A DNA stretch of 64,000 nucleotides, taken from NCBI RefSeq assembly GCF_023276435.1, contig NZ_JALLPO010000008.1, forward strand, positions 62,001 to 126,000. The letters run 5' to 3'. The DNA is from Sphaerisporangium perillae (GTDB taxonomy: Bacteria > Actinomycetota > Actinomycetes > Streptosporangiales > Streptosporangiaceae). The position numbers were made by a program, and so were the translations under genes. Below, piece by piece: positions 4,754 through 61,435 of the stretch (position 1 is the first letter of the stretch; each line of letters starts with the position of its first letter). Under the pieces are notes generated by a model that worked only from the letters and a program-made list of their open reading frames with translations, had not been told where the DNA came from and searched no databases.

Positions 4754-6262
4754 TCAAGATGAGGCGGATAATTGCGGAATGCCGTTTCTCTCCGCGTCTG
4801 AGGTGGGTACAGGAAGGCGTACGACGAAGCGCGCACCGCCGCCCCGGCGTCCGGGACCCATCACGGCCCGACCGGTGATCGCCGCGGCTCCGTCACGCTC
4901 CTGCTCAACGACCGCTGCGGCTCCGTCACCCTCCTGCTCGACGGCCGTCGCCGCTCTCTCGCCCTGCTCGCCGCTCGTCACGGCTTCGCCGCGCTCCGCC
5001 TCCGCGATCGTCACGGCTCCACCGTGCAGCACGGCTATCTCCCTGACGATCGCCAACCCCAGGCCCGAGCCGCCCGCGTCTCTCGCCCGTGCCCCATCGA
5101 GCCGGGTGAACCGGTCGAACACGGCTTCGCGGTCCTCGGAAGGGATGCCCGGCCCGTCGTCCCGGACCTCGAGCAGAGCGCTCCCCTCCTGCCTGGCGAC
5201 GCGCACCTCGACGAACGACGCGGCGTGCCGCACGGCGTTGTCGACCAGGTTGGTGATCAGTCGGGCGAGGTGGGAACGGGAGCCCCGGACCACCACGTCG
5301 GGATCGATGGCGAGCCGCACCCGCACCCCGGCCCTGGGACGGAGCCGAAGGGATTCCTCCGCCGCCACCTGCCCAAGGTCCACCTCGTCGGCCCTCGGCG
5401 GCTCTCCCGCGTCCAGGGCGGCCAGCAGGAGCAGGTCGGCGGCCAGCGACTGCAACCGGTCCACGTCGGCGAGCGCCTCACCGGTCGTCTCGCCGGGCGG
5501 CGCCAGCTCCAGCCGGGTGCGCAGCGTCGCGATCGGGCTGCGCAGCTCGTGGGCGGCGTCGGCGACGAATCGCTTGTGCTGCTCGACGGCCTTCTCCAGC
5601 CGGTCGAGGGTGGCGTTGACGGTGCGGGCGAGGGAGGCGATCTCGTCTCGGGCCTCGGGTACGGGGACGCGCCGGTGCAGGTCGCGGGCCGTGATGTCGG
5701 CCAGCTTGGCCCGTATCCCGGACACCGGGACCAGAGCCTGGCCCACGAAGAACCACGTCATCCCCGCCACCAGCAGCAGCAGGGCGGGGATGCCGAAGAT
5801 CAGCAGCTTGTACAGCACCGTGAGCGCCTCGCGCGCGGGCTCCAGCGAGCTGCGCGCGGTGACGGTCAGCGGCCCGGTGCCGGTCTCGACGGTGGCGCTG
5901 GCCGTCGTGTAGCCGTCGGACGTCCACGTACGGCTCGGCGCCTCGGCGGGACGGCCGACCTGCACGTCGGGATCGGCCAGCGCCTGTGACAGGCCTTTCT
6001 CCGACCCGGTGTACAAGGACTTCAGCGCCGGCGTGCCGGGTACCGACAGGACGCCGGTCTCGCCCTGGGCCGGGACCGAGAGGACGCCGGCCGCCGCCGC
6101 GGCACGCCGGGCGGCCTGCGCGGTCGCGCTCCGTTCCAGGTTGTCGCGGAGAACCATGGTGAGCGCGGCGGCGGCCCCGCCGAGCGCGACCGCGACGATG
6201 AGAGTGGCGGCGACGGTGGCGCGGAGCCGTAACGACCATCGCGGGCGCGGGTGGAGGCGCAT
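4754..6262 (-). CDS. Sensor histidine kinase (OmpR-partner class)
   Basis: A 502-residue membrane kinase. Membrane helices lie near residues 14-38 and 152-174 with an extracytoplasmic sensor between them that contains GVLSVP twice. A HAMP linker follows, then the phospho-acceptor box with HELRSP (His about 239) and an ATPase domain with LVDNAVRH, DDGPGIP and GSGLGLAIV. The start codon overlaps the regulator's stop as TGATG, so the pair is translationally coupled. Oddly, about 55 residues rich in Glu, Ala and Gly, with EQE[GR]DGAAA repeated, are inserted between the last glycine box and the terminal RFVVRLPV strand. This may be an expanded loop that does not destroy the fold. Confidence 0.92.
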   Translation of the reverse strand: MRLHPRPRWSLRLRATVAATLIVAVALGGAAAALTMVLRDNLERSATAQAARRAAAAAGVLSVPAQGETGVLSVPGTPALKSLYTGSEKGLSQALADPDVQVGRPAEAPSRTWTSDGYTTASATVETGTGPLTVTARSSLEPAREALTVLYKLLIFGIPALLLLVAGMTWFFVGQALVPVSGIRAKLADITARDLHRRVPVPEARDEIASLARTVNATLDRLEKAVEQHKRFVADAAHELRSPIATLRTRLELAPPGETTGEALADVDRLQSLAADLLLLAALDAGEPPRADEVDLGQVAAEESLRLRPRAGVRVRLAIDPDVVVRGSRSHLARLITNLVDNAVRHAASFVEVRVARQEGSALLEVRDDGPGIPSEDREAVFDRFTRLDGARARDAGGSGLGLAIVREIAVLHGGAVTIAEAERGEAVTSGEQGERAATAVEQEGDGAAAVVEQERDGAAAITGRAVMGPGRRGGGARFVVRLPVPTSDAERNGIPQLSASS

Positions 6263-6936
6263 CACCGGTGCCCGTCGAGCCGGTAGCCCGCGCCCCGTAC
6301 GGTCACCAGCGACGAGCGGCCGAAGGGAGCGTCCACCTTGCGGCGCAGCGCGCTGATGTACACCTCGACGATGCTCGGATCGCCGTCGTAGGCGAAGTCC
6401 CACGCCTGCCGCAGCAGCTCGGCCTTGGACACCACCTCACCCGGCCGCCGGGCGAGGCTGTGCAGCACGGCGAATTCCTTAGGGGTGAGCGCGATGTCCA
6501 CGCCCGCCCGGCTGCACCGCATCCCGGCGGGGTCGATCACCAGGTCGCCGACCGTCAGCGCGACCGGGCGCTCCCGGCCGCCCCGCCGTACGAGGGCGCG
6601 CAGCCGGGCGAGCAGCACGACATAGGAGAACGGCTTGGACAGGAAGTCGTCGGCCCCGGTGTCCAGCGCCTCCGCCTCGTCGTACTCGCCGTCCTTGGCG
6701 GTCAGCATCATGATCGGCGTCCAGTTCCCGGCGTCGCGCAGGCGGCGGCAGACCGCGTACCCGTTGAGCCGCGGCAGCATGACGTCGAGCACGATGGCGT
6801 CGTAGGCGTTCTCGGTCGCCATCCACAGGCCCTCTGTCCCGTCGTGGGCGAGGTCGACGGCGAAGCCCTCGCCCGACAGCCCGCTCTTCACGAGCGTGGC
6901 GAGCCGCCGCTCATCCTCCACCAGCAGCACACGCAT
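6262..6936 (-). CDS. OmpR-family response regulator
   Basis: A 224-residue regulator with a receiver domain (acidic pair E7-D8, phosphorylated Asp51 in LDVML, Lys101 in SKPFS) and a C-terminal winged-helix DNA-binding domain ending in VRGAGYRL. It is the partner of the kinase that follows it in a two-gene operon. The divergent small secreted protein gene starts 150 bases away, and an 11-base-spaced direct repeat in the shared promoter is a plausible binding site for this regulator. Confidence 0.93.
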   Translation of the reverse strand: MRVLLVEDERRLATLVKSGLSGEGFAVDLAHDGTEGLWMATENAYDAIVLDVMLPRLNGYAVCRRLRDAGNWTPIMMLTAKDGEYDEAEALDTGADDFLSKPFSYVVLLARLRALVRRGGRERPVALTVGDLVIDPAGMRCSRAGVDIALTPKEFAVLHSLARRPGEVVSKAELLRQAWDFAYDGDPSIVEVYISALRRKVDAPFGRSSLVTVRGAGYRLDGHR

Positions 6937-6989
6937 GCCTCCAGCCTGCCGGAAGGACCTGAAGCGCAGCTTAAGATCATTTCGGGTGT

Positions 6990-7010
6990 CTTCAGGTTGG
7001 CTTCAGGTGG
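6990..7010 (+). promoter_or_regulatory. Direct repeat, likely response-regulator box
   Basis: CTTCAGGTTGG at 6990-7000 is followed directly by CTTCAGGTGG at 7001-7010, giving an 11-base period that matches the head-to-tail binding of OmpR/PhoB-type dimers. It lies in the divergent promoter between the two-component operon and the secreted-protein gene. The assignment to the adjacent regulator is inference. Confidence 0.55.
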
Positions 7011-7085
7011 CCGTTGGCAGTGTCTCTCCCGTCCGACCGCCGTAGGTCGATCCGGCTGTGGTCGACCGGTCTGAAGGAGATACGA

Positions 7086-7568
7086 ATGATCAGCAAGCGC
7101 ATGGGTTCGGCGATCTCGGCCGCGGTGCTCGGGGTGGCCCTGGCCGCCACCCTCACCGCCGCCGCGAGCGCCGACGAGGCCCCCCGCAGCGGCGGGCGCC
7201 CCACCTCCGGCGTGACGACCTGTGAGAGTCCGGCCAGGATCGTGGAGAAGGACGGCAAGCTTCTGCTCGACGACGGCAAGGAGGTCAGGGAGCTGAAGGC
7301 AGACGACCGGGTGCGAGCCGTGCCGGCCATCCCGGCCGTGCCCCCCGGCAGCGCCGTTCCGGAGGGCACGGGCGTTCCGCACACGGAGAGCGTTCCGTCG
7401 ACGGAGAAGGCTCCGCCCGCCGAGGACGCCCCCGAAGGGGAGAAGGGGCTGTCGGAGGACGCCGATCAGGGCGTGAAGGGGACCACCGAGCGTGGGACGC
7501 CCGCCGAGGGCGCGCACGGCCGCGTCACGGCCGTGTGCACAGCTGAGGCGCCGGCGCCCTCGAAGTAG
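7086..7568 (+). CDS. Small secreted protein, unknown function
   Basis: A 160-residue exported protein. A classic signal peptide (MISKR, hydrophobic core, ASADEA cleavage region) occupies residues 1-31. The mature part is hydrophilic, acidic and rich in Pro, Glu and Gly, with short VP-containing repeats; two cysteines (TTCES and AVCTA) could form one disulphide. The start is well placed: AAGGAG sits just before the ATG. Its divergent position next to a two-component system suggests it is a target or accessory of that system, as is common for such pairs. No known domain is recognised. Confidence 0.75.
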   Translation: MISKRMGSAISAAVLGVALAATLTAAASADEAPRSGGRPTSGVTTCESPARIVEKDGKLLLDDGKEVRELKADDRVRAVPAIPAVPPGSAVPEGTGVPHTESVPSTEKAPPAEDAPEGEKGLSEDADQGVKGTTERGTPAEGAHGRVTAVCTAEAPAPSK

Positions 7569-7667
7569 GCAAGGCCATCCCGCCGGCTGCCCTGGACCCG
7601 TGGTCCTGGACGGCCGGCGCGGGCACCGGCGTCGCCATCAGGCGCGCTCGCGGGCGAGGTGCTGCAC

Positions 7668-7727
7668 GATCAGGGGCGTTCGCGAGCGAGACGCTTCAGG
7701 ATCACTTCAGGATCAGGGGCGTTCGCG
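7668..7727. repeat. Duplicated end of the DUF2277 gene with 11-base tandem repeat
   Basis: A 17-base segment starting GATCAGGGGCGTTCGCG occurs at 7668-7684 and again at 7711-7727, the latter inside the 3' end of the DUF2277 gene. Between them CTTCAGGATCA is perfectly tandemly repeated (7694-7704 and 7705-7715), ending on the gene's stop codon. This looks like slippage or local duplication at the end of that gene. Confidence 0.65.
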
Positions 7728-7937
7728 GGCGACGTTCTTCACCTGGAGCTCGTCCAGAAGGGTCTGGGTCGCCGCGGCGACCGCCTCGACGGCCCGCTCG
7801 AAGGCCTCCGCGTTGCGCGCGGACGGCGCACGGAAGCCCGAGATCTTGCGGACGTACTGCAGTGCGGCGGCCTGCACGTCGTCATCGGTGACGTCGCTGG
7901 TGTAGGGCTCGCGAAGGGTCTTGATGCTCCGGCACAT
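7713..7937 (-). CDS. DUF2277 family protein
   Basis: A 74-residue protein starting MCRSIKTLREP, the hallmark N-terminus of the DUF2277 family of small conserved bacterial proteins. The function is unknown. The family cysteine at position 2 is present. An in-frame ATG further upstream (8003) exists, but the family start is at 7937. Its 3' end lies in the local duplication described above. Confidence 0.85.
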   Translation of the reverse strand: MCRSIKTLREPYTSDVTDDDVQAAALQYVRKISGFRAPSARNAEAFERAVEAVAAATQTLLDELQVKNVARERP

Positions 7938-8148
7938 GACAGGACGGTACGTCATGGGCGCGCCGGGTGAGGAGTCGCGGCGGCGGCCCAGGGGTGACCC
8001 CATGGCAGGGCGTGCGCGTCGGCGCTCTGGCGTACGCCGCGGCGTGGTTCCGGGGGGTGACTGATCGCGGCAAAGTACCCTTCAAGCGGCGTTACCGGAC
8101 ATCCCGCGCCGGGGATGGGCAGTACATCTCTGACGACCGGAGGCCGCC

Positions 8149-8418
8149 ATGGCGCAGAAGACGACCGCCGCCCGGAAGGGCGCGACGCGCGCTCCGATAA
8201 AGGTCGAGCGGCGGCCCGAGGTGACGTTGCCGCTGGTCGGCCGGGTGATCATGCCCCCGCCCGACCGGATCGCCTTCTATGTGGCGCTTGGCGCGCTGGC
8301 CGCCGTCGAGATCATCGAATGGCCCGTGGCGCTGATCATCGGATTCGGTCACTTCCTCGCCGAGCAGCATTTCTCCCGCGTCCTGCAGGCAGTGGGGGAG
8401 GCCGCCGAAGCCGCCTGA
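8149..8418 (+). CDS. Small protein with one hydrophobic helix
   Basis: An 89-residue protein: a basic N-terminal tail (about 25 residues rich in Lys, Arg, Ala, Thr), a short loop PPPDR, and a hydrophobic helix (FYVALGALAAVEIIEWPVALIIGFG) followed by an amphipathic end. GGAGG lies just ahead of the ATG. Such small proteins recur in actinomycetes but I do not know a function. It stands alone between genes of the other strand and the ferritin-like gene. Confidence 0.65.
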   Translation: MAQKTTAARKGATRAPIKVERRPEVTLPLVGRVIMPPPDRIAFYVALGALAAVEIIEWPVALIIGFGHFLAEQHFSRVLQAVGEAAEAA

Positions 8419-55368: not shown

Positions 55369-56037
55369 GTGGCACGCATGCCGGAAGGTAGGCGGAGGGC
55401 TGAGTCGCCCGCCGTCGCCGGGCGCGTGCCCGTGACCGTTTCAGGCGATCAGGCCCAGACGGGCGTGACGCGGGAAGGCCGGATGGCACGGTTCGTGGCC
55501 GGCTCCCGGTTCGGTCGTCTGCTGGCCATCGGCGGTCTGATCGCCGTCGGCTGGTTGCTGGGCGTGGTCTTCGGTACCGTCGGCGCCGCGCCCGCGGCCG
55601 CGGAGGCTCGCGTTCCGGCGGGTCACGTGGCTACGGCGAAGGTCGGCGACCTGGTCGAGAGCGCCCATACCGGAGCGGTGCGCCGTTCCGTCTCCACAAC
55701 CCCTCATGTCGCCACCGGGCCGGCGTTGGCCGGCGGTTTCCCCACGGTGAGCGTCAACGCTCCGGCGGATGCCGGGGCCATGGCCGGAAGGACGGTCGAC
55801 GGGCTCACCAGCCAGTCGAAGCCCGTTCATCCTCAACCATCCACCGCCGATCACTCGGCGGGGGCCAATGGGTTCGTGCCCAGGGGTGGTGGCTCCGGCC
55901 CGTCCGGGCCGAGTCTGGGGGACGTCGCGAGGTCCGTCTTCGACCTGCGGCTCATGGTCGCGCCCGCCGTCCTGGTGAGTGCGCCCACCCCTGTCGTCCG
56001 TACGGCAGCGGACGACCCTTCTTTCTCTCCCGACTGA
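55369..56037 (+). CDS. Secreted or membrane-anchored Ala/Gly/Pro-rich protein
   Basis: About 222 residues. A basic N-terminus of some 50 residues precedes a hydrophobic helix (LLAIGGLIAVGWLLGVVFG) ending in APAAAEA, a likely signal peptide or anchor. The mature part is Ala/Ser/Pro-rich and disordered, with no known domain. The GTG at 55369 with GGGGAGG before it is preferred over 55312. It stands just upstream of the chaplin-like gene on the same strand and may serve the same aerial or wall surface. Confidence 0.6.
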   Translation: MARMPEGRRRAESPAVAGRVPVTVSGDQAQTGVTREGRMARFVAGSRFGRLLAIGGLIAVGWLLGVVFGTVGAAPAAAEARVPAGHVATAKVGDLVESAHTGAVRRSVSTTPHVATGPALAGGFPTVSVNAPADAGAMAGRTVDGLTSQSKPVHPQPSTADHSAGANGFVPRGGGSGPSGPSLGDVARSVFDLRLMVAPAVLVSAPTPVVRTAADDPSFSPD

Positions 56038-56261: not shown

Positions 56262-56412
56262 GCCGACTCGTGCGATGCGTTCGATCTCCGCGCCCTGCCG
56301 CCCCCGCGATCCACGCGGTGTGCGCAGTGTGTGCGGTCTCGTGTGGCACCGCCCCGTGCTCTTCGCGGTCTGTCAGGAACTACCCCCCAAAGAAACCAAG
56401 GAGCGATCTGTT

Positions 56413-58152
56413 ATGCGAACGTGGGCGAAGGGCTCCGCTCCCGCAGCTCTGCTTGCGGTGGGCGTCATGGCTCTCGGTAGCGGCACGGCCGTTGCCGACA
56501 CCTCCGGCACCGGTTCGGTGGGTGGCGGTAACCAGGTCAACCTGCCCATCACCATCCCCGTCGACATCAGCGGCAACGCGGTCGGCGTGATCGGCGAGTC
56601 GTCGGCCTCGTCCCGTGGCGGCTCGTCCGTCCAGGGCGGTTCCGGCTCCGCCGGCATCCAGGGCAGCACTTCAGGGCGCAACAGCGTGCTCGGCGGCAAC
56701 CAGGTGAACGCCCCGATCACCGCCCCCATCAACGCGTGCGGCAACGCCGTCTCGCTGGTCGGGCGTTCCGACGCCGGCTGCCGGGGCGGGGCGACGGTCA
56801 AGAACGGCGGCGGCAGCGGCGGCGCGGGCGGCAACAGGACCGACGGCCGCAACAGCGTCCTCGGCGGCAACCAGGTGGTCGCCCCGATCACGGCCCCCAT
56901 CAACGCGTGCGGCAACGCCGTGGCGATCTTCGGCGAGGCGACGGCAGGGTGCCGGGGCGGCGCGTCGGTCGTGAACGGCGGTGGACGCGGCGCGGGTGGC
57001 AACCGGACCTCTGGGCGTTCCTCCGTGCTCGGCGGCAACCAGGTGGTCGCCCCGATCACCGCGCCGATCAACATCTGCGGCAACTCGGTGGCCCTCATCG
57101 GAGAGGCGTTCTCCGGCTGCCGGGGCGGTGCCCATGTCAAGGGCGGCAACGGCGGCAACGGCTACAACGGCCACGGTTCCAAGGGTGGCTCGGGCGCCGG
57201 GCGTAACACGACCAGCGGGCGTCACAGCATCGGTGGCGGCAACCAGGTCGTCGCCCCGATCAACCTGCCGATCGAGGCCTGCGGCAACGCGGTGGGCAAC
57301 GCCAGCGCGGGTTGCACGGGCGGCATCACCGCACGTCCGGCCGGGCGTGGCGGCGGCGCGGGCGGCAACAGGACCGACGGCCGCAACAGCGTCCTCGGCG
57401 GCAACCAGGTGGTGGCCCCGATCACCGCTCCCATCAACGTCTGCGGCAACGCGGTCGCCGTGATCGGCGAGGCCTTCGCGGGCTGCCGGGGCGGCGCGTC
57501 GGTGAAGGGCGGCGCCGGGCGCGGCGCGGGCGGCAACCGCACCGACGGGCGTCACAGCATTCTCGGCGGCAACCAGGTGGTGGCTCCGATCACCGCGCCG
57601 ATCAACGTCTGCGGCAACGCGGTCGCCGTGCTGGGCGACGCCGCCGCGGGTTGCCTGGGCGGCGCGCGCGTCGGCGGCGGGCGGCAGGGCCACGTGGCTC
57701 ACAGCTCCGGCCAGGTCTCGAGCACCAGGGCGTCGGGTCTCGGGCTGCTGCCCGACCTGCCTCTCGTCCCGGCCCTGCCGGGTCAGCGCGGGAACGTGAC
57801 GCACCAGGCCGGCGGGCCGGAGAAGCCGGCCGCCCTGCCCGTGCTGCCGGCTCTGCCCGGTCAGGCCGGCGCCAAGAAGGGCCCGGCCGACGGGCCGCTG
57901 GACCAGGTCACCGGCATGGTGTCCAACAGCCCGGTCGGCGAGGCCGTGGCGAACACCCCTGTCGGCGGCGTCGTCGGCGGCCAGGCGACCCGCAACCTGC
58001 CGGTCAACACCGGCCTGATGAGCGCGGAGCAGCCGCTCGGCCTCACGGGGATGAACTCCGGTTCGCTGGCCGCTCTGCTGGCCGGTGCCCTGTTCGCCGC
58101 CTCGGCGACGCTGTTCGCGGGCACCCGCCGCCTTCGCTTCCGGCGGAAGTGA
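56413..58152 (+). CDS. Chaplin-like seven-repeat cell-wall protein with sortase-type end
   Basis: A 579-residue secreted protein. The signal peptide ends at about AVADT (residue 28). Seven units of about 50-60 residues follow, each with GGNQVVAPITAPIN-x-CGNAV then AxxGCxGG. This is the pattern of chaplins, the amyloid-forming surface proteins of aerial hyphae; the two cysteines in units 2-7 probably pair, and unit 1 lacks them. A Pro/Gly-rich stretch then leads to LPVNTG/LGLTG-like signals, a hydrophobic helix and RRLRFRRK, a sortase-type anchor. AAGGAG precedes the ATG, so the longer upstream frame is not used. Confidence 0.88.
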   Translation: MRTWAKGSAPAALLAVGVMALGSGTAVADTSGTGSVGGGNQVNLPITIPVDISGNAVGVIGESSASSRGGSSVQGGSGSAGIQGSTSGRNSVLGGNQVNAPITAPINACGNAVSLVGRSDAGCRGGATVKNGGGSGGAGGNRTDGRNSVLGGNQVVAPITAPINACGNAVAIFGEATAGCRGGASVVNGGGRGAGGNRTSGRSSVLGGNQVVAPITAPINICGNSVALIGEAFSGCRGGAHVKGGNGGNGYNGHGSKGGSGAGRNTTSGRHSIGGGNQVVAPINLPIEACGNAVGNASAGCTGGITARPAGRGGGAGGNRTDGRNSVLGGNQVVAPITAPINVCGNAVAVIGEAFAGCRGGASVKGGAGRGAGGNRTDGRHSILGGNQVVAPITAPINVCGNAVAVLGDAAAGCLGGARVGGGRQGHVAHSSGQVSSTRASGLGLLPDLPLVPALPGQRGNVTHQAGGPEKPAALPVLPALPGQAGAKKGPADGPLDQVTGMVSNSPVGEAVANTPVGGVVGGQATRNLPVNTGLMSAEQPLGLTGMNSGSLAALLAGALFAASATLFAGTRRLRFRRK

Positions 58153-58741: not shown

Positions 58742-61435
58742 ATGACAGCGAACAGCGAGGTAGGAAGCAGCGTGCCAGCCAAGAACGGCAACGCCGGCGG
58801 AACCCGCCTGGTGATCGTGGAGTCGCCCGCCAAGGCGAAGACGATCGCCGGGTACCTCGGGCGCGGCTACATCGTGGAGTCCAGCATCGGCCATATTCGC
58901 GATTTGCCGGAAAAGGCCGACGACATCCCCGAGAAGTTCAAGGGCGAGGCATGGGCCCGTCTCGGGGTGAACGTGGACAACGAGTTCGAGCCGCTGTACG
59001 TCGTCAACCCGGACAAGAGGTCGCAGGTCTCCAAGCTCAAGCAGCTGCTCAAGGACGCCGACGAGCTCTACCTCGCCACTGACGAGGACCGCGAGGGAGA
59101 GGCCATCGCCTGGCACCTGCAGGAGGTGCTCAAGCCCAAGGTGCCCGTGCACCGCATGGTCTTCCACGAGATCACGCCGCAGGCGATCCAGGACGCGGTG
59201 TCCAACCCCCGCGCCCTGAACCTCCGGCTGGTCGACGCCCAGGAGACCCGGCGCATCCTCGACAGGCTCTACGGCTACGAGGTCAGCCCGGTCCTGTGGA
59301 AGAAGGTCAAGCCGCGCCTGTCGGCCGGCCGCGTGCAGTCGGTCGCCACCAGGCTGGTCGTGGAGCGCGAGCGCGAGCGCATCGCGTTCACCTCCGCCGA
59401 CTACTGGGACCTGCGTGCGATCTTCGACGTGGGCCGCGACGAGGACCCGCGCAGCTTCGGCGCGACCCTGACCGGGGTGGACGGCCGGAAGGTCGCCCAG
59501 GGCCGTGACTTCGCCAGCACGGGCACGCTCAAGAACGCCGACGTCCTCCAACTGGACGAGCAGGCGGCCCGGGCCCTGGCGCAGCGCCTTTCGGACTCCC
59601 GCTACTCGGTCACCTCCGTCGAGAGCAAGCCGTACACGCGCAGGCCGTACGCGCCGTTCCGGACGACGACGTTGCAGCAGGAGGCGAGCCGCAAGCTCGG
59701 CTTCTCGGCGAAGTACACGATGCAGGTGGCCCAGAAGCTATACGAGAACGGCTTCATCACCTACATGCGTACCGACAGCACGACGCTGTCGGAGACCGCC
59801 CTGGCCGCCGCCAGGAGCCAGGCCGTGCGGCTGTACGGCCCCGAGTACGTCCCGGACAAGCCGAGGGTCTACCAGAGCAAGGTGAAGAACGCTCAGGAGG
59901 CCCACGAGGCGATCAGGCCCTCTGGGGACGAGTTCCGCACGCCCGGGGAGACCGGACTCTCCAGTGACATGTTCCGGCTGTACGAGCTGATCTGGCAGCG
60001 CACGGTGGCCTCGCAGATGAAGGACGCCGTCGGCGAGTCGGTCAGCGTCCGCATCGGCGGCACCTCCAGCACCGGTGAGAAGGTCGAGTTCAGCGCCTCC
60101 GGCCGCACGATCACCTTCTACGGCTTCCTCAAGGCGTACGTCGAGGGCGCGGACGATCCCTCGACCGACCGCGACGACTCGGTCAGCCGGCTGCCCAACC
60201 TGGGCCAGGGCGATCCGCTGACGGCGCTGGAGCTGGCAGCCGAGGGACACTCGACCCGCCCGCCGGCGAGGTTCACCGAGGCTTCGCTCGTCAAGGAGCT
60301 CGAAGACCGCGAGATCGGCCGCCCGTCAACGTACGCGTCGATCATCGGAACGATCCTCGACCGCGGGTATGTGTTCAAGAAGGGCACGGCGCTGGTGCCG
60401 TCCTTCCTGGCGTTCGCCGTGGTCAACCTGCTCGAGCAGCATTTCGGCAACCTGGTCGACTACGACTTCACGGCCGAGATGGAGAAGGTGCTCGACGACA
60501 TCGCCAACGCCCGGGCCGAGCGGGTGCCCGAGCTGCGCCGGTTCTACTACGGCGAGCAGGGCGACGACGGCCTGAAGGAGCTGGTCAGCGACCTCGGCGA
60601 GATCGACGCGCGCGAGATCAGCTCGTTCTCGATCAAGGGCACGGACATCGTGATCCGCGTCGGGCGTTACGGACCGTACCTCGACCGTGACGGCGCGCGG
60701 GTCAACGTTCCAGAAGATCTCGCGCCCGACGAGCTCACGGCGGAGAAGGCCGAAGAGCTGTTCACGCAGCCGAGCGGCGAGCGTGAGCTGGGCGCCGATC
60801 CGGCCACCGGCCACATGATCGTGGCGAAGTCGGGGCGTTTCGGGCCGTACGTGACCGAGATCCTGCCAGAGGAGGAGCCGCCCGCCGAAGGCGCGAAGAA
60901 GAAGGCGAAGAAGGACGTCGCCAAGCCCCGCACGAGCTCGCTGCTCAAGTCGATGTCGCTGGACACGATCACGCTGGACGACGCGCTCAAGCTGCTGTCG
61001 CTGCCCCGCGTTCTCGGGGAGATCGACGGCGAGGAGGTCACCGCGCAGAACGGCAGGTTCGGCCCCTACATCAAGAAGGGGACGGACTCCCGCTCGCTGG
61101 CCTCCGAGGACGAGTTGTTCACGGTCACGATCGAGCAGGCCAAGGAGCTGTTCGCGCAGCCCAAGCAGCGTGGCAGGGGTCGTGCGGCCACCGCTCCGCC
61201 GCTGCGCGAGCTCGGCGTGGACCCGGTCTCCAAGCAGCCGGTCGTGGTCAAGGAGGGCCGTTTCGGGCCGTACGTGACCGACGGCGAGACCAACGCGTCC
61301 CTCCGCAAGGAGGACTCCGTGGAGCAGATCACGATCGAACGCGCCGCCGAGCTGCTCGCCGAGCGCCGCGCCCGTGGCCCGGCGCCGAAGCGGCCCCGCG
61401 CCAAGGCGGGAGCCAAGGCCGGCGCCAAGTCCTGA
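58742..61435 (+). CDS. topA: DNA topoisomerase I
   Basis: An 897-residue type IA topoisomerase. The TOPRIM domain has VIVESPAKAKTI (about 24-35) and DEDREGEAIAWHL; the active-site Tyr is in FITYMRTDST. The C-terminal third carries repeated GRYGPY/GRFGPY units and ends in a Lys/Ala/Arg-rich tail without zinc-finger cysteines, as in mycobacteria and streptomycetes. It relaxes negative supercoils and is essential. The first codons are non-conserved; a start at GTG 58772 is also possible. Confidence 0.97.
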   Translation: MTANSEVGSSVPAKNGNAGGTRLVIVESPAKAKTIAGYLGRGYIVESSIGHIRDLPEKADDIPEKFKGEAWARLGVNVDNEFEPLYVVNPDKRSQVSKLKQLLKDADELYLATDEDREGEAIAWHLQEVLKPKVPVHRMVFHEITPQAIQDAVSNPRALNLRLVDAQETRRILDRLYGYEVSPVLWKKVKPRLSAGRVQSVATRLVVERERERIAFTSADYWDLRAIFDVGRDEDPRSFGATLTGVDGRKVAQGRDFASTGTLKNADVLQLDEQAARALAQRLSDSRYSVTSVESKPYTRRPYAPFRTTTLQQEASRKLGFSAKYTMQVAQKLYENGFITYMRTDSTTLSETALAAARSQAVRLYGPEYVPDKPRVYQSKVKNAQEAHEAIRPSGDEFRTPGETGLSSDMFRLYELIWQRTVASQMKDAVGESVSVRIGGTSSTGEKVEFSASGRTITFYGFLKAYVEGADDPSTDRDDSVSRLPNLGQGDPLTALELAAEGHSTRPPARFTEASLVKELEDREIGRPSTYASIIGTILDRGYVFKKGTALVPSFLAFAVVNLLEQHFGNLVDYDFTAEMEKVLDDIANARAERVPELRRFYYGEQGDDGLKELVSDLGEIDAREISSFSIKGTDIVIRVGRYGPYLDRDGARVNVPEDLAPDELTAEKAEELFTQPSGERELGADPATGHMIVAKSGRFGPYVTEILPEEEPPAEGAKKKAKKDVAKPRTSSLLKSMSLDTITLDDALKLLSLPRVLGEIDGEEVTAQNGRFGPYIKKGTDSRSLASEDELFTVTIEQAKELFAQPKQRGRGRAATAPPLRELGVDPVSKQPVVVKEGRFGPYVTDGETNASLRKEDSVEQITIERAAELLAERRARGPAPKRPRAKAGAKAGAKS

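Follow-up and report, generated by a model that had tools for sequence, protein, structure and literature searches.

Chaplins are amyloid surfactants in Streptomyces (PMC5618241). In PMC5618241 and PMC5148588, Streptomyces coelicolor is described as carrying an eight-gene set that includes short chaplins together with long chaplins of two domains, and the same two-domain type appears in PMC8166509; the long chaplins are thought to tether the short ones (PMC5618241). Chaplin-like genes have also been reported in Streptosporangium roseum, Thermobifida fusca and other species (PMC4255298), the part of that paper at hand leaving their architecture undescribed. No description of multi-unit chaplin proteins was found in the open-access chaplin literature, which was surveyed mostly by listing entries, and this is no proof of absence. 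Here we analyse a 64,000-nucleotide stretch of the Sphaerisporangium perillae genome (assembly GCF_023276435.1, contig NZ_JALLPO010000008.1, positions 62,001 to 126,000; hereafter the window, to which coordinates refer), in which one forward-strand gene at 56413-58152 encodes a predicted protein of 579 residues with seven chaplin-type units. Judging from this protein and its relatives, we think it somewhat probable that it is a cell-wall-anchored, multi-unit member of the PF03777 family with which a single gene gives hyphae, spores or sporangia their hydrophobic coat.

A Pfam scan of the 579-residue protein gave a match to PF03777 (ChpA-C) of 129.4 bits (cut-off 21, E 4.3e-38) distributed over seven stretches, as expected from an earlier sequence-only reading of the window that had described seven chaplin-like repeats. 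The outcome that it had named as a refutation, repeats of an unrelated secreted family, is not borne out, the units being PF03777. In a search of the whole genome, six of the seven units exceeded the PF03777 cut-off singly, with unit 5 under it at 19.9 bits, and profile coverage stops near position 48 of 57. By hhalign, the Cys-containing units matched Streptomyces-type domains at 98.0 % (E 2.2e-13, 32 columns) and unit 1 matched them at 93.3 %. The comparison set comprised 41 domains (36 distinct), selected with a pattern that required both Cys and a third GN motif and that left out Cys-less domains; a profile scan indicated that a few domains without two Cys exist beyond this set, and a chaplin domain without the conserved cysteines has been published for ChpB. 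The two groups differ in their spacing. The two Cys are 18 apart in 41 of 41 Streptomyces-type domains versus usually 14 in the present units, and GN motifs, measured start to start, lie 15 and 14 apart in 37 of those 41 domains, whereas 389 of 540 Cys-containing units of the present type have exactly two GN motifs, 15 apart, and a single unit of the 540 has spacings of 15 and 15. As regards the two conserved Cys of the strict definition, six of the seven units have two, with spacings of 14 or 11 and not 18, and unit 1 has none; where a long chaplin is defined by two domains plus a sortase signal, this protein has seven units. By family profile the predicted protein is a chaplin, one that falls outside the strict Streptomyces definition in its spacing of 14 instead of 18 and in its missing third GN.

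The protein begins with a putative signal peptide (residues 1-28, MRTWAKGSAPAALLAVGVMALGSGTAVA, 56413-56496), in which AlphaFold predicts a helix at residues 9-21 with low confidence and for which the ratio of nonsynonymous to synonymous substitution rates (dN/dS) is 0.02-0.20 in five comparisons. The seven units, delimited with a hidden Markov model, span about 43 residues each with a period of 54-68. Unit 1 (56503-56631) is chaplin-like and has no Cys; units 2 (56671-56799), 3 (56842-56970) and 4 (57010-57138) each have two Cys with a spacing of 14; unit 5 (57214-57333) is preceded by the longest linker and has a shortened loop with a Cys spacing of 11; unit 6 (57376-57504) returns to two Cys with a spacing of 14; and unit 7 (VLGDAAAGCLGG, 57544-57672) likewise has two Cys with a spacing of 14. 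The Cys counts of 0, 2, 2, 2, 2, 2 and 2 and the spacing of 11 as against 14 confirm that unit 1 lacks cysteines and that unit 5 is short, as had been remarked. A stalk rich in Pro and Gly follows (residues 423-533, 57679-58011), which is poorly conserved (dN/dS 0.45-0.84) and predicted to be mostly disordered, with a predicted local distance difference test score (pLDDT) mostly below 50. The C-terminus consists of the motif LPVNTG (57997-58014), the candidate non-canonical sorting motif LMSAEQP-LGLTG-MN (58015-58056, with LGLTG at 58036-58050), a hydrophobic membrane segment (58057-58125; predicted by AlphaFold as a helix at residues 549-571) and the basic tail RRLRFRRK (58126-58149).

This layout is shared by many relatives. 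From 204 loci confirmed in a search of genome contigs, we retained the best 80; together with the window protein they form the 81 proteins counted below and, having been picked by similarity to the window, they describe this lineage and not PF03777 at large. They come from Sphaerisporangium, Nonomuraea, Microbispora, Herbidospora, Planotetraspora, Acrocarpospora, Streptosporangium, Planomonospora, Planobispora, Microtetraspora and other genera, and include a locus of Actinomadura rudentiformis. The sequence-only reading had proposed a count of repeats in related genomes, and this count, made with a profile built from the units, gave 6-10 units in 81 of 81 proteins (eight in 57, seven in 17, six in 6 and ten in 1). 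Unit 1 is without Cys in every protein and each later unit has exactly two, with a spacing of 14 in units 2, 3 and 6 of all 81. In the fifth unit the spacing is below 14 in 76 proteins (11 in 65); the short unit is the fourth in loci L077 and L080 and none was seen in L108, L113 and L115, so that 78 of 81 have one. Because it recurs in 80 related loci, the layout is not a product of chance. Decay was considered as the cause of the missing Cys in unit 1 and of the shortening of unit 5, and was rejected, since a Cys-less unit 1 is conserved in 81 and a short unit in 78 of 81 proteins. Beyond this set, PF03777 matched in 96 of 120 genomes drawn evenly from the family as defined by the Genome Taxonomy Database (GTDB). 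A query made of signal peptide and unit 1 matched in 91 of 120 GTDB-family genomes at E 1e-5, and in 47 of these 91 the match reached E 1e-21 or better and spanned at least residues 1 to 73, a count that covers the signal peptide and unit 1. In an even draw from the phylum, PF03777 was present in 16 of 296 genomes, 11 of the 16 coming from one genus, presumably Streptomyces, with scores up to 105 bits. At the level of predicted proteins, the multi-unit architecture is widely conserved within the known chaplin family.

The order of the units is conserved as well as their number. In a matrix of eight-unit proteins (20 of 57 sampled), identity between units at the same position was 0.74-0.83 versus 0.48-0.72 off the diagonal; among seven-unit proteins (n = 17) the contrast was weaker, unit 6 having 0.73 versus up to 0.72. 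Units 2, 3, 4 and 6 of the window protein are nearest to the equal positions of eight-unit proteins. Its unit 7 best matches their eighth and last unit, with a mean identity of 0.81 to position 8 and 0.69 to position 7 over the 57 eight-unit proteins, and because its last unit equals position 8 the window protein lacks the usual seventh unit. Since a unit resembles its positional counterpart in other species more than any other unit, the array is, on these alignments, mostly old and not homogenised, with an exception in L075. This locus of Nonomuraea indica (6001-8220) has ten units, three of which are identical and lie mid-array, a recent tandem expansion. Between the window protein and five Sphaerisporangium relatives, dN/dS was 0.04-0.50 in units 1-4, 0.11-0.69 in unit 6, 0.04-0.18 in the last unit and 0.09-0.24 in the tail.

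The C-terminus carries a conserved block, LMSA[AE]QPxG[VL]TGMN, in which L, M, S and A are each present in 80 of 81 proteins, P in 79, Gly at P3 in 73, T in 76, G in 80 and M in 79. The sequence-only reading had listed LPVNTG and LGLTG as unusual signals. Both are present and LGLTG lies in the conserved block, whereas LPVNTG occurs in 1 of 81 proteins, with merely its LP pair conserved (L in 77 and P in 80 of 81), and was rejected as a sorting signal. Within the last 100 residues, LAXTG is found in none of the 81 tails and LPXTG in two, and most have xG[VLI]TG there. From the last G of the motif to the RR of the basic tail there are 25 residues in all 80 measurable tails, the differing tail of L123 not being measurable, and none of the 81 proteins departs from RR or from the R two residues further on. 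As in sortase substrates, the motif is followed by a hydrophobic segment and then by the basic tail, the pentapeptide itself being non-canonical. Because other multi-unit relatives have LPVTG, LPLTG, LAVTG, LASTG or LALTG in the same place before the membrane segment, xG[VL]TG is best read, from the aligned tails, as a drifted sorting pentapeptide. In each of the seven Herbidospora loci retrieved (L059, L064, L065, L071, L072, L095 and L110) the drift has gone further, to DSITG.

The genome encodes one class E sortase (L010; NF033747, 220.7 bits, cut-off 160), which matches solved sortases including SrtE1 (5cuw, E 7.8e-23), and three class F sortases. The sortase class, which the sequence-only reading had asked for, is thereby given for the genes of the genome; for this particular tail, class E is the most likely candidate. 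According to the proposal in PMC5148588, class E sortase has a tyrosine that contacts the P3 residue through its amide, and it can be argued that Gly at P3, which offers a free amide where Pro does not, is compatible with that model. It might be supposed instead that the C-terminus is a plain membrane anchor with no sortase signal, so that the protein would remain in the membrane, and that LMSAxQP is a binding or processing site. Such a reading would accommodate the stronger conservation of L, M, S and A (80 of 81 each) than of T (76 of 81), the presence of Gly and not Ala or Pro at P3, and the failure of a genome search to find this tail on any other protein (next E 0.60). We regard it as quite improbable, given that motif, membrane segment and RR tail stand in sortase-signal order, that LASTG, LALTG or LPVTG-like motifs precede the membrane segment of other multi-unit relatives, and that a class E sortase gene is present together with a P3 amide that fits the tyrosine model. 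The seven units, the conserved tail and the sortase genes support three parts of the earlier proposal, namely membership in the chaplin family, multivalency and a non-canonical signal for wall anchoring, as far as sequences can tell.

A second PF03777 gene was not found in the genome, where the next-best match to a short-chaplin query had E 0.25; the assembly consists of 120 contigs and is 99.28 % complete, so that an overlooked small gene is possible and unlikely. Two more PF03777 matches (E 0.60 and 0.97) were discarded as chance level, 4 of 14 control genomes giving matches at the same threshold. These results bear on the idea that the array is a wall-anchored tether or nucleator that templates the amyloid of separate short chaplins. 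Some relatives do have possible partners: single-unit proteins with a 14-residue Cys loop occur in Nonomuraea dietziae (L125) and at L024, L031 and L042, and of 16 named relatives searched whole, five have a second open reading frame (ORF) with PF03777. The remaining 11 have PF03777 in one ORF only, and because no short chaplin was found in the window genome or in these 11, a partner chaplin is seemingly not the general rule; we consider a tethering or nucleating role unlikely. One of the five with a second ORF is Planomonospora sp. ID67723, in which a single Streptomyces-type chaplin (L124; Cys spacing 18, 88.9 bits) stands beside a six-unit protein (L116) and was perhaps acquired horizontally.

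Other arrangements of the same domain were found as well. Eighteen ORFs among L015-L040, from the same GTDB family and 346-514 residues long, have a four-unit architecture. These proteins (e.g. L022, L023 and L030) resemble the present one in having units with a Cys spacing of 14 and a wall-anchor tail, and differ from it in having two Cys in every unit and therefore no Cys-less first unit; their tails carry LPVTG in 11, LPLTG in 4 and LAVTG in 2, one motif lying outside the part seen. In other actinobacterial families, L145, L146 and L161 have, like the present protein, 6-10 units and a wall-anchor tail, and their units resemble unit 1; unlike it, they have Cys in no unit and LAXTG-type tails (LASTG, LALTG). 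Because single-unit, four-unit and Cys-less 6-10-unit forms were found, the two-domain long chaplin is, on predicted proteins, one among several PF03777 architectures. The earlier statement on known long chaplins, that they have two domains each, is right for the S. coelicolor type described in PMC5618241 and PMC8166509 and does not hold for the family at large, in which proteins with four and with six to ten units exist.

In the model that we favour, a hydrophobic coat made from one gene, the seven-unit protein would be exported and each Cys pair would close a disulfide inside its own unit. Placed head to tail, the units would be the rungs of a beta-solenoid whose turns hold the GN pairs, and one polypeptide would already contain several rungs, for which Streptomyces has to bring separate short chaplins together. 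The stalk would be joined to peptidoglycan by a sortase, most likely of class E, that cuts between T and G in [AVL]G[VL]TG; the array would thus be held away from the wall and may associate with other arrays side by side or end to end. Unit 1, which has no Cys, would form the outermost rung, serving as a cap or a joining face, while the last unit, which is among the most conserved, would sit at the stalk. It is tempting to go further and speculate, as a doubtful but possible extension, that a whole branch of sporangium- and spore-forming actinomycetes swapped the many-gene chaplin set for one pre-registered covalent stack, the rungs of which have conserved roles of their own (a Cys-less cap, a short inner rung and a stalk-side last rung) and which is anchored by a private sorting signal, xG[VL]TGMN, the product being a one-molecule amyloid-like filament of fixed length.

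Structure prediction gives this model partial encouragement. For the whole protein, AlphaFold returned a mean pLDDT of 64.9 and a predicted template modelling score (pTM) of 0.58, with the units at about 70-88, and for the repeat region alone the best model had a mean pLDDT of 71.7 and a pTM of 0.72; the units are predicted to be stacked as a beta-solenoid. Aligned with VIA-align, a program for which Z under about 13 may reflect the mere common arrangement of repeats, the curli subunit CsgA (8c50) gave Z 11.0 over 177 residues at a root-mean-square deviation (rmsd) of 5.6 A with the whole-protein model and Z 10.0 over 164 residues at 3.4 A with the array model, of which it is the nearest low-rmsd match; FapC (9u4u), another functional amyloid, reached Z 2.4 only. 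Foldseek matches were largely beta-helical or solenoid proteins, none of them significant, and a sequence search of the PDB with the 579-residue protein gave no relative at E up to 1.

Several observations weigh against the model. The five AlphaFold models of the repeat array differ widely, the best having a mean pLDDT of 71.7 and the others 62.4 to 41.8. Foldseek found no match in the PDB at E 0.001 with either predicted structure (best 0.48 and 0.30); CsgA itself had E 0.48 in one search and 5.5, at rank 32, in the other, and beta-helices of the SufB/SufD type equal CsgA in Z at an rmsd of 9.3-13.5 A. On a crude AGGRESCAN-type scale, aggregation hot spots fall in the C-terminal halves of units 1-4, 6 and 7, yet the 68 hot residues among the 394 of the repeat region are equalled or exceeded in number in 492 of 500 shuffles, and hot residues make up 0.17 per residue versus 0.40 in Streptomyces-type domains. 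For the nucleation of surface amyloid, which the sequence-only reading had suggested and which may or may not occur, the hints are thus indirect, the CsgA alignments pointing towards it and the aggregation scale away from it. Unit 5 fits the picture of fixed and constrained positions poorly: in seven-unit proteins its same-position identity of 0.64 is no higher than its identity to unit 7, in the window protein its identity to position 5 is 0.65 versus 0.66 and 0.67 to positions 2 and 3, and its dN/dS of 0.29-1.06 indicates weak constraint. Finally, 5 of 81 tails have no T in the sorting motif, and only 5 of 81 have Leu at P4.

The low aggregation score would also suit an adhesin or structural wall protein, in which the stacked units would make a stiff beta-solenoid rod that is not amyloid. 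Such a rod would bind spores or hyphae to one another or to a surface, and its hydrophobicity would be of secondary importance. A stalk bearing a rod is the usual layout of an adhesin, and the beta-helical adhesins EtpA and antigen 43 are among the fold matches. Their rmsd, however, is 8.9-10.5 A, and the sequence family is that of the chaplins, which PMC5618241 describes as amyloid surfactants in Streptomyces; we hold an adhesin to be improbable.

The reading frame is defined by an ATG at 56413, with GGAG closely 5' of it, and a stop at 58150-58152, so that the coordinates first given, 56413-58152, are exact. A longer reading of 663 residues from 56161 was rejected in view of the conservation of MRTW and of the ribosome-binding site at the later start; R2, T3 and W4 are invariant in an alignment of 62 rows. 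Alignment of 81 upstream regions revealed a conserved forward-strand 5' block (CTGTCAGG..A..CCCCC..AA plus the ribosome-binding site, 56370-56406), for which no Rfam family was found. A known RNA element in the 5' region was rejected, the one Rfam match lying on the opposite strand 3' of the gene with E 0.95, far under the gathering score.

The neighbourhood is conserved, too. Upstream on the same strand lies a syntenic gene (55483-56037) for a protein of 184 residues when read from its MARF start (ATG). This protein has a hydrophobic segment near its N-terminus and the near-invariant C-terminus RTAADDPSFSPD. A homologue precedes the array gene on the same strand in 79 of 80 loci, L123 (Actinomadura) being the one where none was found; the exact RTAADDPSFSPD end is present in 66 of 80 extracted proteins and in 73 when two positions are left free, and the stretch AMAGRTVDGLTSQSKP is well conserved. 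The longer ORF had no match in Pfam and the protein none in NCBIfam. Downstream, topA (58742-61435, forward strand; TIGR01051, 802.4 bits) follows on the same strand in all 80 loci; it is presumably unrelated in function to the chaplin array. An M20 peptidase gene lies upstream of the gene pair in the window and also upstream in 53 of 80 loci; no match was seen in the other 27 (e.g. L047, L049 and L051), in 25 of which 6 kb upstream were examined.

A natural protein in which a single chain carries six to ten chaplin-type rungs, always in the same order, would make a tractable target for the chaplin fold, and removal of rungs would show how many are needed for surface activity. The tail offers a test case for drift of class E sortase specificity away from LAXTG. 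More broadly, proteins of this type bear on how aerial hyphae and sporangia are raised by actinomycetes without the Streptomyces chaplin set.

With CsgA, in which, according to PMC10192328, beta-arches are stacked and their arcs carry conserved Asn, the present protein shares a predicted stack of beta-arches on a single chain with Asn at the turns; by analogy only, the GN motifs may be likened to the arc Asn of CsgA. The two differ in that there is no sequence match, in repeats of about 23 residues (PMC10192328) versus about 56 here, and in the lack of a wall anchor in CsgA; curlin repeats were not found in the window protein, a Pfam scan at E up to 1 giving PF03777 only. What we propose also resembles CwpA and CwpB of Actinoplanes missouriensis, an actinomycete that forms sporangia; these are hydrophobic wall proteins that depend on a class E sortase and, according to the authors of PMC13251363, have no chaplin domains. 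Finally, ChpA-C of Streptomyces share PF03777 domains, a stalk and a sortase-type signal followed by membrane segment and basic tail with the present protein. ChpA-C have two domains and LAXTG as class E substrates and belong, in S. coelicolor, to an eight-gene set with short chaplins (PMC5618241, PMC5148588), and the Streptomyces-type domains compared here have a Cys spacing of 18 and three GN motifs, whereas the protein described here has seven units, a spacing of 14, two GN motifs, xG[VL]TG and the one gene found.

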